Positions 51,207 through 58,060 of a stretch of DNA of 64,000 bases are shown here, piece by piece. Source of the DNA: Pseudoclavibacter sp. CFCC 11306 (GTDB lineage: Bacteria; Actinomycetota; Actinomycetes; Actinomycetales; Microbacteriaceae); assembly GCF_008831235.1 (NCBI RefSeq), contig NZ_WBKF01000002.1, positions 310,001 through 374,000 of the forward strand. The letters run 5' to 3'. Numbering within the stretch: the stretch's first letter is position 1; every line of letters begins with the position of its first letter. The notes beneath the pieces were generated by a model that did not search any database, had not been told where the DNA came from, and saw only the letters and a program-made list of their open reading frames with translations. A program made the position numbers and the translations under genes.

Positions 51207-52193
<987 letters not shown>

Positions 52194-52785: not shown

Positions 52786-53964
52786 ATGGAGCAGAACACC
52801 GCTGTGCCCTATGCCTCGCCTGCAAGCGCAGCAGGGGCGCCGTTCGTCTCTCAGCCGCAGCGATACGACGGCATTCTTCTTGCCGGCTTCGGAGGCCCCG
52901 AAGGGCAGGAAGACGTCATTCCCTTTCTCAGAAATGTGACTCGCGGTCGCGGCATTCCAGAAGAACGGCTTGAAGAGGTCGCCCACCATTACCGTCGCTT
53001 CGGCGGCATCAGCCCGATCAACGCGCAGAACCGAGCACTGAAGAAGGCGCTCGAGCGCGAGCTGGCGGCGCGAGGCATCGACCTGCCCGTGTACTGGGGC
53101 AACCGCAACTGGGCACCGTATCTGACTGATGCGGTACGCGAGGCGGATGCGGCAGGCGACCATCGACTCCTGGCGCTCGCCACGAGTGCCTACAGCTCGT
53201 TCTCAAGCTGCCGTCAGTACCGAGAAGACTTCGCTCGTGCGCTCGAAGAGACCGGCCTCGCCGAGACCATGACGATCGACAAGATTCGTCAGTTCTTCGA
53301 TCACCCGGGCTTCGTCGACTCATTCGTTCCGAGCGTTCTGTCTGCTCTGCAGAGGTTCCGCGACGATGGAACCGACGTCGAACACATGCGTGTGCTCTTC
53401 ACCACCCATTCGATTCCTCTCGCCGACGCGCAGCGGTCGGGGCCACGAGATGCAGACTTCGGCCCGGGTGGCGCGTATGAGGCACAGCACCGGGCGGTGG
53501 CGGCAGCGGTGATGCGTCGCGTCGGCGATCAGGATGCGATGCTCAAAGACGTGAGCTGGGAGCTCGTCTACCAATCTCGATCAGGGCCCGCGGCACAGCC
53601 CTGGCTGGAACCGGATGTCTGCGACCGCATCGCCGAGCTGCCGGGCGAGTCGGTCGAGGCCATCGCGATCTCGCCCATCGGATTCGTCAGCGACCACATG
53701 GAGGTGCTCTGGGATCTCGACACCGAGGCTCTCGAGGCGGCGTCAGAAGCCGGTCTTCGCGCCGTGCGAACGGAAACTCCCGGCACCGCCCACACGCAGG
53801 TGGCCGGCATCGTAGACCTCATCGAAGAACGCATGTCGGCGGTCGATCCGGCTGATCGCCCGTCTGCCACCGCCCTCGGCCCGTGGTTCGACGTGTGTCG
53901 GCCAGGCTGCTGCGAGAACGTCAGAGCTGGGTTCAAACGTGCTGCCGCAGGCGTCGCGCCGTGA
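52786..53964 (+). CDS. hemH: Coproporphyrin III ferrochelatase
   Basis: A 392-aa enzyme inserting iron into coproporphyrin III in the actinobacterial haem route (CpfC). It begins ILLAGFGGPEGQEDVIPFL, and the catalytic His lies in FTTHSIPLADA. The C-terminal VCRPGCCEN plus the Cys in SSFSSCRQY give the four cysteines of the [2Fe-2S] cluster found in actinobacterial ferrochelatases. ATG 52786 has CGGAG upstream. Possible iron-dependent control is discussed in the findings. Confidence 0.94.
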   Translation: MEQNTAVPYASPASAAGAPFVSQPQRYDGILLAGFGGPEGQEDVIPFLRNVTRGRGIPEERLEEVAHHYRRFGGISPINAQNRALKKALERELAARGIDLPVYWGNRNWAPYLTDAVREADAAGDHRLLALATSAYSSFSSCRQYREDFARALEETGLAETMTIDKIRQFFDHPGFVDSFVPSVLSALQRFRDDGTDVEHMRVLFTTHSIPLADAQRSGPRDADFGPGGAYEAQHRAVAAAVMRRVGDQDAMLKDVSWELVYQSRSGPAAQPWLEPDVCDRIAELPGESVEAIAISPIGFVSDHMEVLWDLDTEALEAASEAGLRAVRTETPGTAHTQVAGIVDLIEERMSAVDPADRPSATALGPWFDVCRPGCCENVRAGFKRAAAGVAP

Positions 53965-54120
53965 GTGCAGTCGTCGTCGTGAAGCGTCCGCAGAGGTGCA
54001 TTCCGCTGGTCGGCTGAGAGCCGTGACCGCCGATCGCGGCGTGTAACGTGGTGGGGGCAGGATGCCCTTCGGACGCGTCGAGGGTCGGCGCGTCGCTGCG
54101 AGACAGGATGAGGATTTCTG

Positions 54121-54597
54121 ATGGCGACACACGGACTGATCATCGACCACCCCGGGCTTCCGACCGTTCCCGACCAGCGCGCGGCCCTCGACGACGCTCA
54201 GGTCAGCGAGTGCACAGAGATCGCACCGCGCACGCAGGAAGACTGGCACTACCGCATTCGCGAGGCGCTGGAGACCTTCGACGCGGACGACACCGCGGTG
54301 GTCTCAGAACTCTGCGTACTCGGTCTGAACGCGGTGAGTCTGCTCGACAGCCTTGAGGCCGTCAGCGCGAGCCAGGTGCGCTTCGTCTCGCTCGGGGAGG
54401 GCATCGACAGCGCCGAGGATCCCCGCTTTCTGGCACACGCCAAGACCATCAGCAACGCGCTCGAGGCCGGCAGGCTCGCGCAGGCTCGCACCATCATCGA
54501 CCGTGCGAAGCATCGAGACGCGGTGACTCCGCCCAAAGTCGAGTTCGTCGACCGCGACCTCTGGGAGGCCACGGCCGCTGAGACCATCGACGACTGA
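54121..54597 (+). CDS. Serine-recombinase-like domain protein lacking catalytic residues
   Basis: A 158-aa protein not found in any named family by recall. Residues ~57-130 (DTAVVSELCVLGLNAVSLLD, QVRFVSLGEGID, then an ALEAGRLAQARTIIDRAKHR helix) follow the fold pattern of resolvase/invertase catalytic domains. That pattern is D.LVV..LDRLGR....L......GV.F.SL.EGID followed by the long E helix. The N-terminal Y-x-R-V-S motif with the nucleophile Ser is absent, and the LDRLGR arginine position reads LCVLGL. No DNA-binding tail or repeats are present. GAGGA precedes ATG 54121. It lies 18 bases before the Eis-like gene. Probably a domesticated, non-catalytic protein; function unknown. Confidence 0.5.
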   Translation: MATHGLIIDHPGLPTVPDQRAALDDAQVSECTEIAPRTQEDWHYRIREALETFDADDTAVVSELCVLGLNAVSLLDSLEAVSASQVRFVSLGEGIDSAEDPRFLAHAKTISNALEAGRLAQARTIIDRAKHRDAVTPPKVEFVDRDLWEATAAETIDD

Positions 54598-54615
54598 CTC
54601 AGAAAGCGGGAGACC

Positions 54616-56067
54616 ATGTCGCAGCGCCAGCCGCAGCGTCTGAACGCTGACGCGCTCGAGACGTTCTCGTCGAACGCGCAGCGCAGACTGGACGCCGCCC
54701 GACTGCAGGGCCGAGTGGTCGATCAGTCTGACGAGGTCGCGGTCGACGGCTGGCTCGGCGCCATGGAGCGCGGCTTTCTCGATGCGCTGCCGCCGACACC
54801 GCGCATGCGTCGAGAGCTGCGCGACACGTTGGTCGGCAGTCGCATCATCGGCATCTACGACGACGCTCTGAGCATCGAGGGCGATTCTGCCGATCAGAGT
54901 GATCGCGAAATCGACGAAGACCCGACTGACGAAGAGGCCATGCACAGCGCGATCGCGGCATCGCCGGCGGGCACCGCCCAAGGGTGGCCGACCGGTCTCA
55001 CGCTTGTCGGTGGCTCATCGGTGGATGCCTGGGCGATTTCTGCTGTGACAGTCGCCGGCACGCATCGTCGGCGGGGCATCGCACGAGCCATGATCACGGA
55101 TCAGCTGGACGCAGCGATCGCGAGCGGAGCATCCGCCGCTGTGCTGACCGCAACCGAAGGCGGCATCTACGGGAGATTCGGATTCGGCCCGGCCACGCGC
55201 TCGACGACGCTGCGCTTCGATCCGAGACGTGTCTCATGGCGCGACCGGGCAGACGACGATATGACTGTGCGGCTGGTCGCGCCGCAGGCCCTGCGCGCCG
55301 AGGCGCCGCAGGTGTTCGAACGTGCGCGGAATGCCGGAGACATCGGTCGACGTGACGTGTGGTGGCAGCAGGCGCTGCGAGTCTTCTCGCTGCGGCTGTT
55401 CAACCACGGTGACTCAGGCACCACGCTTGCGCTGCGCGTCGACTCTGCGAAGACTGGGCGACTTGAAGGCTTCGCCCTGTACCGAGTCTCCGGCGGCGAG
55501 GAGCACGGCCGTCTGGTGGTCGACGAGGTCTGCGCGGCAGATCCCGCTGCCGAGGCGGCGCTCTGGCGCCATCTGCTCTCGACCGATCTGGTCGGCGAGG
55601 TCTCTGCACGCAGTCAGCCGGTCGACTTCCTGCTGCCGTGGCTGCTGAACGATCCGCGGGCGGTCGCGGCGAAGCAGACCAGCGACTCGCTCTGGGTGCG
55701 TGTGCTCGACGTCTGTTCAGCGCTCGCAGCGCGGTCGTGGTCGCGCAGCCCGGCCGGGACTCGGCTGCGGCTGCGCGTCGGCGACGCGTTGGGCTATGCC
55801 GACGGAGACTATCTGCTGCAGGTCGACGAGCTGGGCGCAGGCACCGTCGAACGCCTGCGCGGCGCCGCGACGACGGACGCTTCGGTGCCGACGCTGGAAC
55901 TGGACGTCGCCGACCTGGGGTCGCTGCTCTTCGGATACACCTCGGCGAGCCTGCTGGCCGGTGCCGGGCGAGCCTGTGGGCTGGGCGAATGCGAGGCGGA
56001 GACCTTGGCGCTGGCCGATGACCTGTTCTCGACCGCCCGTGCGCCGCACCTGCGCACACCCTTCTGA
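54616..56067 (+). CDS. Eis-like GNAT N-acetyltransferase
   Basis: A 483-aa protein of the Eis (enhanced intracellular survival) type: GNAT domain, second GNAT-like domain, and SCP2-like C-terminus ending in a terminal Phe carboxylate (HLRTPF) that acts as general base in Eis. The acetyl-CoA loop is VTVAGTHRRRGIARAM, followed by LTATEGGIYGRFGFGPAT, a strong family mark. Mycobacterial Eis acetylates aminoglycosides and protein lysines; the native substrate here is unknown. The insertion GDSADQSDREIDEDPTDEE (~90-108) is acidic and unusual. Confidence 0.9.
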   Translation: MSQRQPQRLNADALETFSSNAQRRLDAARLQGRVVDQSDEVAVDGWLGAMERGFLDALPPTPRMRRELRDTLVGSRIIGIYDDALSIEGDSADQSDREIDEDPTDEEAMHSAIAASPAGTAQGWPTGLTLVGGSSVDAWAISAVTVAGTHRRRGIARAMITDQLDAAIASGASAAVLTATEGGIYGRFGFGPATRSTTLRFDPRRVSWRDRADDDMTVRLVAPQALRAEAPQVFERARNAGDIGRRDVWWQQALRVFSLRLFNHGDSGTTLALRVDSAKTGRLEGFALYRVSGGEEHGRLVVDEVCAADPAAEAALWRHLLSTDLVGEVSARSQPVDFLLPWLLNDPRAVAAKQTSDSLWVRVLDVCSALAARSWSRSPAGTRLRLRVGDALGYADGDYLLQVDELGAGTVERLRGAATTDASVPTLELDVADLGSLLFGYTSASLLAGAGRACGLGECEAETLALADDLFSTARAPHLRTPF

Positions 56068-56170
56068 GGTCTGACCACACAGGGGATGTGTCGGCCCGAT
56101 CGCCGGCGACGGAACCTCGACAGCGCTGGCGCACACGTGCGTGAAGACGTGGTGACAATTCGCTGCACAC

Positions 56171-56193
56171 TATGCAAAAGACGGGCATACAAT
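56171..56193 (+). promoter_or_regulatory. TetR gene promoter and possible operator
   Basis: TACAAT (56188-56193) is followed by seven bases and GTG 56201, suggesting a leaderless start. It overlaps TATGC-N9-GCATA (56171-56189), a short inverted repeat that could be the regulator's own site. Confidence 0.4.
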
Positions 56194-56200
56194 GAGGGAC

Positions 56201-56875
56201 GTGCCACGGCAGAATGACAGAGTTCTCGACCCCAGGGCGCAGCGAACTCGTCAGGCGCTGCGCACGGCCGTGCTCACCCTGATCAGTCAGGAGCCGATCG
56301 AGGTCATCTCGATCTCAGACGTCGTTCGCGAGGCAGGCGTCAACCGCAGCTCGTTCTACGTGCACTACAGCGATATCGACGAACTGCTCGCCGACGCGTT
56401 CGAAGAGCTCTCGATCAGCGTCAATCAAACGAACATGATCTCGCCCGGAGTGCCGCACGACGCCGAGACCGGCCTGCCCAAGACGCTCATGCAGTATCTG
56501 GAGCACATCGCCGAATACAAGTCGGCCTATGCCTGGGCGCTCGGCCCGAAAGGCAGCGCCGCGGTCACGCACCGTCTGCGCGAGCAGTTTCGCGCGATCA
56601 TCGAGCAGAGCCTGTTGCAGTACGCCGACCGCAGCACCGCAGTGCCGATGGGGTTCGACGCTGACGCGGCCTTTCTCGCCGGTGCGGTGATCGGGACCAT
56701 CTCGATCTGGCTCTCCGAAGCTCCCGAGGTGCCCGCCAAACGCGTGAGCGTGTGGCTGTGGCGCCAGCTGCAGCAGGACTTCCTGCGCATCCTCGAACGC
56801 TACGCACTCACCAACCGGCCGGCCGCCCGGCTGCCGAAGCGCGGGCGTCGTCCGAGCAATCCTGGTCGCGGCTGA
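56201..56875 (+). CDS. TetR family transcriptional regulator
   Basis: A 224-aa regulator with the TetR HTH: RTRQALRTAVLTLISQEPIEVISISDVVREAGVNRSSFYVHYSDIDEL. The C-terminal ligand domain (about residues 90-200) is of the TetR_C type seen with FYVHYxDxDEL proteins. It ends in a basic tail RLPKRGRRPSNPGRG. GTG 56201 is chosen over ATG 56192 because of the leaderless -10. The target is not evident; the flanking genes are Eis-like (same strand) and CapA (convergent). Confidence 0.9.
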   Translation: MPRQNDRVLDPRAQRTRQALRTAVLTLISQEPIEVISISDVVREAGVNRSSFYVHYSDIDELLADAFEELSISVNQTNMISPGVPHDAETGLPKTLMQYLEHIAEYKSAYAWALGPKGSAAVTHRLREQFRAIIEQSLLQYADRSTAVPMGFDADAAFLAGAVIGTISIWLSEAPEVPAKRVSVWLWRQLQQDFLRILERYALTNRPAARLPKRGRRPSNPGRG

Positions 56876-56878
56876 GCG

Positions 56879-58060
56879 TCAGCGCACCACCTGCACCTGA
56901 TCGCCCACAGTCTTCTGCACGAACGCGTAGCGGCTGTCGGCGCTTTCGCCGGGAAACTCGCTGCGCACCCGCTCGTCGGCCTGCGACATCGGCAGGATGC
57001 GCAGGCCGTGTCGAGCCCCCAGCGAGACGCCGCGAGCGACGAAGTCCATGAACGTCGGTGTGAACGTGGCCTGCTCGACGGTGACCGGGCCGTCGCCGGT
57101 GCGCACCAGCTGCCACTGCGCGATGCCTCCGGTGCGATTGTTGACCGGCACCTGCGTCGAGAGCATGTTGCCCAGTGAGTTCCAGACCAGCGTGCGCCCG
57201 CCATCCGGACGATCGATGAACTCGGCCGGCTGCAGTACATGCGGGCCGGTGCCGATGACGACGTCGGCGCCCGCGTTCACGAGCTTCTGCGTGAGCTCGC
57301 GCTGTGGGGCATCGGTCGCCGTGGAGTCTTCGGTACCCCAGTGCATTGAGACCATGACGACATCGGCCTGTTTGTGGGCCTCGGCGAGCTGCTCATCCAT
57401 GAGCGGGCCGTCGGTGGTGTTCAGACCGAAGGTCGTGTGCCCCATGTTGCTCTGCGCGGTGAAGGCGAGCTGGGCGATCTTCATGCCGTTGATCTCGGCG
57501 TAGGCGATCGTGCGTTGCTCTTCGGAGCTGCGGTTGGCCCCGGCGATGAGCTTCGGCTGCAGGGCATCCCAGGTGTCGCGGGTGCGGTCGATGTCAGCCT
57601 GCTCGTAGTCGGCCATGTGGTTGTTCGCCAGGTTGATGTCGTTGCAGCCGACGTCGCGGCTCAGACTCTCGGCGAACTGAGTGGGGGCGCGGAACCGAGG
57701 ATAGGTCGTGATCTGTGCGGGGGATGTGGCCGAGGCGAGCACCTCTTCGTTGCAGAAAACCAGGTCGGAGCTCTGATAGATCGGCCGGATCGCGTCGAAG
57801 TAGTGACCGTAGTCGTAGCCGTCAGCGGTCTTCGCCTCGGCGTTGACCGCATGGTGCGGCAACATGTCGCCCATGGCGCTCACGGTGACGCGCTGTTCTG
57901 TCGGTGCGCTTGGTGTGCTCGGTGCGCTGCTGGTCTGCTCTGGGGTGAATGAAACAGGCGCATCTGGTGCGACGTTCGAAGTGCACCCCGTCAGCGCGAG
58001 CGTCAGACCGAGCAGGCCGACGGAGGAAGACAGCGGCAGAGACCCAGGCAGGTGGCGCAT
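56879..58060 (-). CDS. CapA family lipoprotein (metallophosphatase fold)
   Basis: A 393-aa exported lipoprotein: signal peptide with lipobox LTGC (Cys25), Ser/Pro linker, then the CapA/PgsA domain. Motifs are VSAMGDMLPHH (metal site), FCNEEVLAS, NLANNHMADYE and GTGPHVLQPAE, characteristic of the calcineurin-like CapA family. CapA proteins take part in capsule/poly-glutamate anchoring, but many members in actinobacteria have unknown substrates. ATG 58060 is preceded by TATACT at seven bases (leaderless). It ends three bases from the TetR gene. Confidence 0.9.
   Translation of the reverse strand: MRHLPGSLPLSSSVGLLGLTLALTGCTSNVAPDAPVSFTPEQTSSAPSTPSAPTEQRVTVSAMGDMLPHHAVNAEAKTADGYDYGHYFDAIRPIYQSSDLVFCNEEVLASATSPAQITTYPRFRAPTQFAESLSRDVGCNDINLANNHMADYEQADIDRTRDTWDALQPKLIAGANRSSEEQRTIAYAEINGMKIAQLAFTAQSNMGHTTFGLNTTDGPLMDEQLAEAHKQADVVMVSMHWGTEDSTATDAPQRELTQKLVNAGADVVIGTGPHVLQPAEFIDRPDGGRTLVWNSLGNMLSTQVPVNNRTGGIAQWQLVRTGDGPVTVEQATFTPTFMDFVARGVSLGARHGLRILPMSQADERVRSEFPGESADSRYAFVQKTVGDQVQVVR

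Follow-up and report, generated by a model that had tools for sequence, protein, structure and literature searches.

A serine-recombinase-fold protein without catalytic residues or a DNA-binding domain is very probably domesticated in Pseudoclavibacter

The window analyzed here, a stretch of 64,000 nucleotides from Pseudoclavibacter sp. CFCC 11306, contains a short gene whose product looks like the catalytic domain of a resolvase from which the DNA-cutting residues have gone, and it raises the question of whether such a gene is a remnant on its way to loss or a protein kept for another purpose. The gene, which we call X together with its orthologs, is listed as an open reading frame at 54121 to 54597 on the plus strand and encodes 158 amino acids (aa) from an ATG start. 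A GAGG at 54110 to 54113 (plus strand), seven bases 5' of the ATG, is the likely ribosome-binding site; a preliminary description of this DNA had also credited the gene with one. All four genus orthologs have a purine-rich stretch 5' of the start, and a promoter scan 5' of X returned no site. The window genome measures 2.35 Mb, and the genus, placed by taxonomy look-up in the Microbacteriaceae (Micrococcales), was represented in our comparison by four genomes: that of the window, Pseudoclavibacter sp. 13-3, P. caeni, and P. soli.

Judged by sequence, the resemblance of X to resolvases is real, yet weak in the window protein and clear in some other members. Against PF00239, the window protein scored 19.0 bits (E = 0.0016), below the curated cutoff of 23.3, which three of the seven X members passed: L045 with 38.7 bits (E = 1.3e-9, the best among X members), L004 with 27.6, and L002 with 24.1. 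The scores of the others were 23.0 (L058), 20.6 (L003), and 14.4 (L012). A profile of six members matched a DNA invertase (3uj3, E = 1.9e-7) and gamma-delta resolvase (2gm4, E = 7.7e-5) in the PDB. In PHROGs, L045 matched a DNA-invertase family (E = 5.4e-7) and the window protein found nothing better than E = 0.13; in NCBIfam, the best match of X had E = 0.23, far under the family cutoff.

Predicted structures confirmed, at the level of models, that X has the alpha/beta catalytic fold of resolvases, a likeness that had been proposed from the letters of the window. The models of the window and P. soli proteins were built from the same shallow alignment of four proteins. The window model (pLDDT 69.2, pTM 0.61) matched Tn3/gamma-delta resolvase in Foldseek with a best E of 1.5e-4 and superposed on 2rsl_C with Z = 10.7 and an rmsd of 3.3 over 111 residues. 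The P. soli model (pLDDT 82.8) superposed on 5cy2_A with Z = 13.8 and an rmsd of 2.7 over 122 residues; 31 of its first 33 matches were titled resolvase, recombinase, invertase, integrase, or complexes of these, the other two being the transposon ORF 3ilx and the putative DNA-binding protein 3lhk. Unrelated proteins begin at about Z = 5.9 in both structure-match lists. A viral structure library gave 18 matches at E ≤ 0.001, and the 13 with names were all integrases, resolvases, or recombinases. On the long helix that had also been claimed for X, the two models differ: helix E is unbroken (residues 102 to 131) in that of P. soli and split (102 to 115 and 119 to 130) in that of the window.

The chemistry of the fold, on the other hand, is gone. 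Residue positions are given in gamma-delta numbering, assigned with the motifs GYARVS, RPEL, and DRLGR of one canonical row as anchors. Arg8, Ser10, Arg45, Asp67, Arg68, and Arg71 are each replaced in all seven X members, while the canonical rows hold Arg8, Ser10, Asp67, and Arg68 in 11/11 and Arg45 and Arg71 in 10/11 cases. The nucleophile position is occupied by His (5/7), Thr (1/7), or Tyr (1/7), so the earlier reading that the nucleophile motif and the conserved arginines were lost is borne out. What X has kept in common with small serine recombinases such as Tn3/gamma-delta resolvase and Gin/Hin (PF00239), besides the fold and the order of its elements, is Gln19, the LG/FG of DRLGR, and the Asp of IDT; Gln19, Gly70, and that Asp are present in 7/7 members.

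Two other segments of X are newly conserved or cut short. Residues 35 to 48 (APRTQEDWHYRIRE; codons at 54223 to 54264, plus strand) cover the former active-site loop and the start of helix B, modeled as a helix from 39 to 50, and hold a replacement motif: Thr38, Glu40, Asp41, Trp42, and Tyr44 are invariant in the six aligned members, and in the seventh, G1196, Asp replaces Tyr44. Residues 136 to 145 (TPPKVEFVDR; 54526 to 54555, plus strand) form a conserved tail, modeled with low confidence, in which [TS]PP[KH] recurs in 7/7 members. This tail sits where the helix-turn-helix of a recombinase would be expected to begin and aligns by eye with the start of its first helix, as if X had been cut off at this point. 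Only 14 residues follow Asp144; the model has one short low-confidence helix there (145 to 156) and no helix-turn-helix, in keeping with the missing DNA-binding tail noted in the preliminary description. With both the nucleophile and the DNA-reading part gone, it is very unlikely that X cuts or reads DNA in the manner of a recombinase.

Despite these losses, X appears to be retained rather than decaying, as had been supposed: it is open and free of stop codons in 4/4 Pseudoclavibacter genomes, and the window and 13-3 genes differ with dN of 0.081 and dS of 0.516 (dN/dS of 0.157; NG86). All 477 bases of this pair align with no indel, and the differences fall 11/15/45 at codon positions 1/2/3. 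Neither of the two outcomes that the preliminary description had named as refuting domestication, a lack of profile likeness to resolvases and frameshifts in close relatives, was observed. The low ratio rests on this one pair and is informative, within the genus, for that pair only; the comparisons of the window with P. soli (0.47/1.07, dN/dS of 0.44) and P. caeni (0.42/0.91, dN/dS of 0.46), by the same method, are near saturation. For the neighboring genes in the window/13-3 pair, dN/dS is 0.083 (hemH), 0.28 (the Eis-like gene), and 0.03 (the TetR-type gene), and the region 5' of X looks strongly diverged between these two genomes. Identity to the window protein is 84.8% in 13-3, 52% in P. 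caeni, 48% in P. soli, 37% in G623, and 30% in G088.

X also has no recognizable mobile context. No terminal inverted repeats were found, as had been stated, the interval from 53900 to 54650 holding only two 12-nucleotide pairs of 92% identity, one reaching from upstream into X and one within it. X had no match in phage, plasmid, and viral-contig collections, and we rejected it as cargo of such elements; it was likewise rejected as a defense system, PADLOC giving no match for X or L045.

The preliminary description had further linked X to the acetyltransferase gene that follows it, and the gap between the two does measure the 18 bases given there. That gene (54616 to 56067, plus strand) has the Pfam domains Acetyltransf_17, Acetyltransf_9, and SCP2_2, presumably the Eis architecture of a GNAT acetyltransferase with an SCP2 domain. 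The link itself failed the neighborhood comparison: the Eis-like gene lies directly 3' of X in only two of the four genus genomes, the window and 13-3, which are the two most similar, and we rejected a functional pair of X and the Eis-like gene on this ground. As the surroundings of X differ across the genus and outside it, this neighbor is most likely incidental. The block in the genus runs from a variable gene through X, the Eis-like gene (window and 13-3 only), a TetR-type regulator gene, and, on the opposite strand, a gene for a PGA_cap-domain protein to thyA- and folA-like genes. In the window, Pfam places the TetR-type gene at 56192 to 56875 (plus strand), the PGA_cap gene at 56879 to 58060 (minus strand), and, as the variable gene, ferrochelatase at 52786 to 53964 (plus strand); ferrochelatase also precedes X in 13-3, and a bioB-like gene does so in P. 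soli. An nrdF-like gene (51216 to 52193, plus strand) lies two genes 5' of X. The names thyA, folA, bioB, and nrd were read by eye.

Outside the genus, also by eye, X has an rpoC-like gene on one side and an rpsL-like gene on the other in G623, lies directly 3' of an nrdF-like gene in G1196, and in G088 is flanked by an NAD(P)HX-epimerase-like gene and genes for an ABC transporter, so that the only neighbor shared with the genus is the nrdF-like gene of one genome. Two side observations concern the genus block. Toxin-antitoxin-like insertions occupy the same interval, between nrdF and the X region, in two genomes (by eye): a HipA/HipB-like pair in 13-3 (L044:5171-6879, minus strand) and a GNAT/DUF1778-like pair in P. 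soli (L042:6327-7174, minus strand). A promoter-like site (9/12 matches, 0.1 expected in the region) lies just 5' of the TetR-type gene at 56164 to 56193 in the window; as the second hexamer runs into the start codon assumed at 56192, use of the site is doubtful.

X is rare. Of 398 family genomes, 86 matched it at E = 1e-3, and only five did so at E = 2e-29 or better, namely the four genus genomes and G088, the sole genome of its genus in the comparison. The next match had E = 3e-10, and those past the first five whose loci were read, down to about E = 1e-5, were all canonical, B, or W proteins (both groups are described below); a very divergent X could hide among the weaker family matches. 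A scan of 396 genomes of the order added one member, G623, and a scan of 394 genomes of the class revealed no further X at E = 1e-10. Within the family of G623, X is present in two of 150 genomes (G623 and G1196), and within its genus in one of four. The members known are therefore those of the four Pseudoclavibacter genomes, one other of the Microbacteriaceae, and two of another family. The sequence of a weakly matching protein in G770 is that of an ordinary recombinase.

Among the weaker matches of the X search were proteins from the genera g100, g106, and g80, here called B, that have the same degenerate core as X and end before helix E. Seven of the eight B proteins carry an N-terminal CPxCF stretch (G377 is without it), and in the profile search two B matches, G650 and G408, run past stop codons. 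B had no match in phage and plasmid collections. X and B have in common a strand-1 run, GLVV....LPSV..QR, and, as the new element of this find, a replacement motif at the old active-site loop: [PA]x[TS]xExW occurs in 15/15 X and B rows and in 0/16 canonical and W rows, a count that is not independent, as the profiles that fetched the rows already contained the motif. HHalign aligned X with B over columns 4 to 98 (E = 9e-16) and X with canonical recombinases from column 18 only (E = 1e-13); in these profiles, and in the alignment behind the helix-E counts given below, the row of the B protein from G402 ended in six extraneous residues, and the tree and main residue counts used the correct row. 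A Na+/H+-antiporter-like gene was seen by eye directly 5' of B at five of the eight B loci (L032, L033, L037, L048, and L054).

The tree and residue counts were made on 31 rows picked from the search matches, one copy each, leaving out near-copies (L017, L018, L027, L028, L031, and L034) and partial or additional rows (L030, L036, and L050). X and B fell on one side of a branch with support of 100/100, found in 100% of 200 bootstrap trees; the alignment is short and the X and B branch long, and long-branch attraction is possible. In a separate run, X alone formed one group in just 26% of bootstrap trees, which suggests that B may have its origin within X or next to it. As B proteins stop before helix E, dimerization through that helix cannot be the function common to the two groups.

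Taken together, X is intact, under purifying selection, and outside any mobile context that we could recognize, which is what one would look for in a domesticated gene, and we consider it very probable that in X the catalytic domain of a serine recombinase has been domesticated. An intact gene kept under selection without its cutting residues or DNA-binding tail has probably been reused for another job. The best overall explanation, and one that we regard as reasonably likely, is that this domesticated domain serves as a non-catalytic adaptor or regulator. How it might do so can be put forward tentatively, as a mechanism somewhat more apt to be wrong than right: X would no longer cut DNA or read it as recombinases do, but would act as a small, perhaps dimeric, non-catalytic protein whose remodeled active-site face binds a partner protein or small ligand, with the conserved [TS]PP[KH] tail taking part in that binding. 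For Pseudoclavibacter, the TetR-type protein encoded downstream would be the first candidate partner. A wider reading, to which we give almost an even chance, treats X and B together as a single ancient, chromosomal family of pseudo-recombinases in actinobacteria. The DNA-cutting site would have been rebuilt once into a new conserved binding site, PxTxExW, and the protein then passed down through seven genera of two bacterial families (X in four of the genera, B in three), serving as a ligand sensor or regulator that is not mobile and has no DNA-binding part.

Several other explanations have to be weighed against an adaptor or regulator. That X is a decaying resolvase caught before its loss would account for the missing chemistry and helix-turn-helix, the subthreshold PF00239 score of the window protein, and the rarity of X outside the genus. 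Such decay is very improbable, however, for a gene that stays open in four genomes at 48 to 85% identity to the window protein, shows the low dN/dS and absence of indels of the 13-3 comparison, and has gained new invariant residues. It is also possible, if rather improbable, that X is a poison subunit, which would form dead heterodimers through helix E with active serine recombinases and so protect the host from resolvases, invertases, and serine integrases. The whole helix E of the P. soli model and the Arg found at position 125 in 6/7 members are in its favor, as are the only two other PF00239 matches of the window genome (G000:C1:146761-147219, L038, and G000:C1:89544-90026, L039), both over the cutoff and one of them within a 665-aa open frame. 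(Next to L039, inspection by eye shows another ORF resembling a recombinase, in a different frame.) Yet other helix-E residues have been lost (Glu118 is Glu in 0/7 members, Arg119 is Arg in 3/7, and Glu124 is Gly in 7/7), the newly conserved residues are found on the loop of the former active site, the sister group B has no helix E, and X shows no linkage to mobile elements.

Alternatively, X could be a new enzyme or small-ligand binder, its pocket rebuilt around Thr38, Glu40, Asp41, and Trp42 for a nucleotide or other metabolite. This is unlikely but would fit the invariance of these residues and Tyr44 in the aligned members, the nrdEF-, thyA-, and folA-like genes seen by eye near the genus loci, and the position of X directly 3' of an nrdF-like gene in G1196. 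That same genome has Asp at position 44, however, and G623 and G088 carry X at other places. nrdF-like genes lie within about 3.6 kb of X in three genus genomes; in P. caeni and G088, nrdF is on a different contig from X, and in G623 it is about 200 kb away. We rejected nrdF as a partner of X, as 0/60 listed nrdF loci (30 + 30, with 107 genomes matched) had X, B, W, or a canonical recombinase, within 1.5-kb flanks that would miss the genus arrangement. A further view, also doubtful, is that X is only a cofactor of the neighboring TetR-type regulator in Pseudoclavibacter and that its distant relatives do other things. The TetR-type gene does lie 3' of X on the same strand in 4/4 genus genomes, at gaps of 1594 bases in the window and 13-3 and of 159 (P. 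soli) and 63 bases (P. caeni) where the Eis-like gene is absent. Against this, no TetR-type gene was seen by eye within about 1.5 kb of X in G088, G623, and G1196, common descent alone may account for a location shared among these related genomes, and the TetR-type protein has diverged far less than X (98.7% versus 84.8% identity to 13-3).

The nearest parallel to X that we found is MrpR, the SP-beta master repressor, described in the excerpted text of PMC10516654 as a protein of tyrosine-recombinase fold that has no recombinase function and now represses a prophage. Like X, it has lost the catalytic residues of its fold and been given another role; unlike X, which has a serine-recombinase fold, a chromosomal location, and no recognizable DNA-binding domain, it is encoded by a prophage and binds DNA. 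IS607-type TnpA, as excerpted from PMC6188088, likewise combines a serine-recombinase domain with the absence of the usual DNA-binding domain at the C terminus. TnpA, however, is a transposase that binds DNA through a domain at its N terminus, and X has a DNA-binding domain at neither end. In the excerpted text of the review PMC8987985, on mobile elements recruited by prokaryotes, serine recombinases are cited for DNA inversion, no evidence is reported for serine resolvases in chromosome segregation, and catalytically dead serine recombinases are not treated. Among the open-access matches listed, we found no description of a serine-recombinase catalytic domain that is under selection and lacks both its chemistry and its DNA-binding domain. 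If the adaptor reading is true, what is useful in a recombinase can be its catalytic domain rather than the part that binds DNA. In practice, counts of mobile elements would be misled if X-type genes were labeled "recombinase," and the motif shared with B offers a cheap handle for finding further members. X differs from small serine recombinases also in having no terminal repeats beside its missing helix-turn-helix.

A group of serine-recombinase relatives from the same bacterial family, here called W (L013, L015, L016, L019, L023, and L030), has Arg8 changed to Trp in 6/6 and Ser10 replaced in 5/6 proteins, with the helix-turn-helix kept, and matched 7/150 family genomes at E ≤ 1e-50. In the rows that include L015, L016, and L023, W resembles X in its altered residues (Arg8 is Trp in 5/5, Ser10 replaced in 4/5) but differs in keeping the Asp-Arg of DRLG (5/5), helix E, and the helix-turn-helix. 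An origin of X from W is not supported by the tree, which places W with the canonical rows and away from X and B. W is possibly a recombinase turned DNA-binding regulator. By eye, DeoR-type or sugar-binding-protein genes lie nearby in several of the W loci listed.
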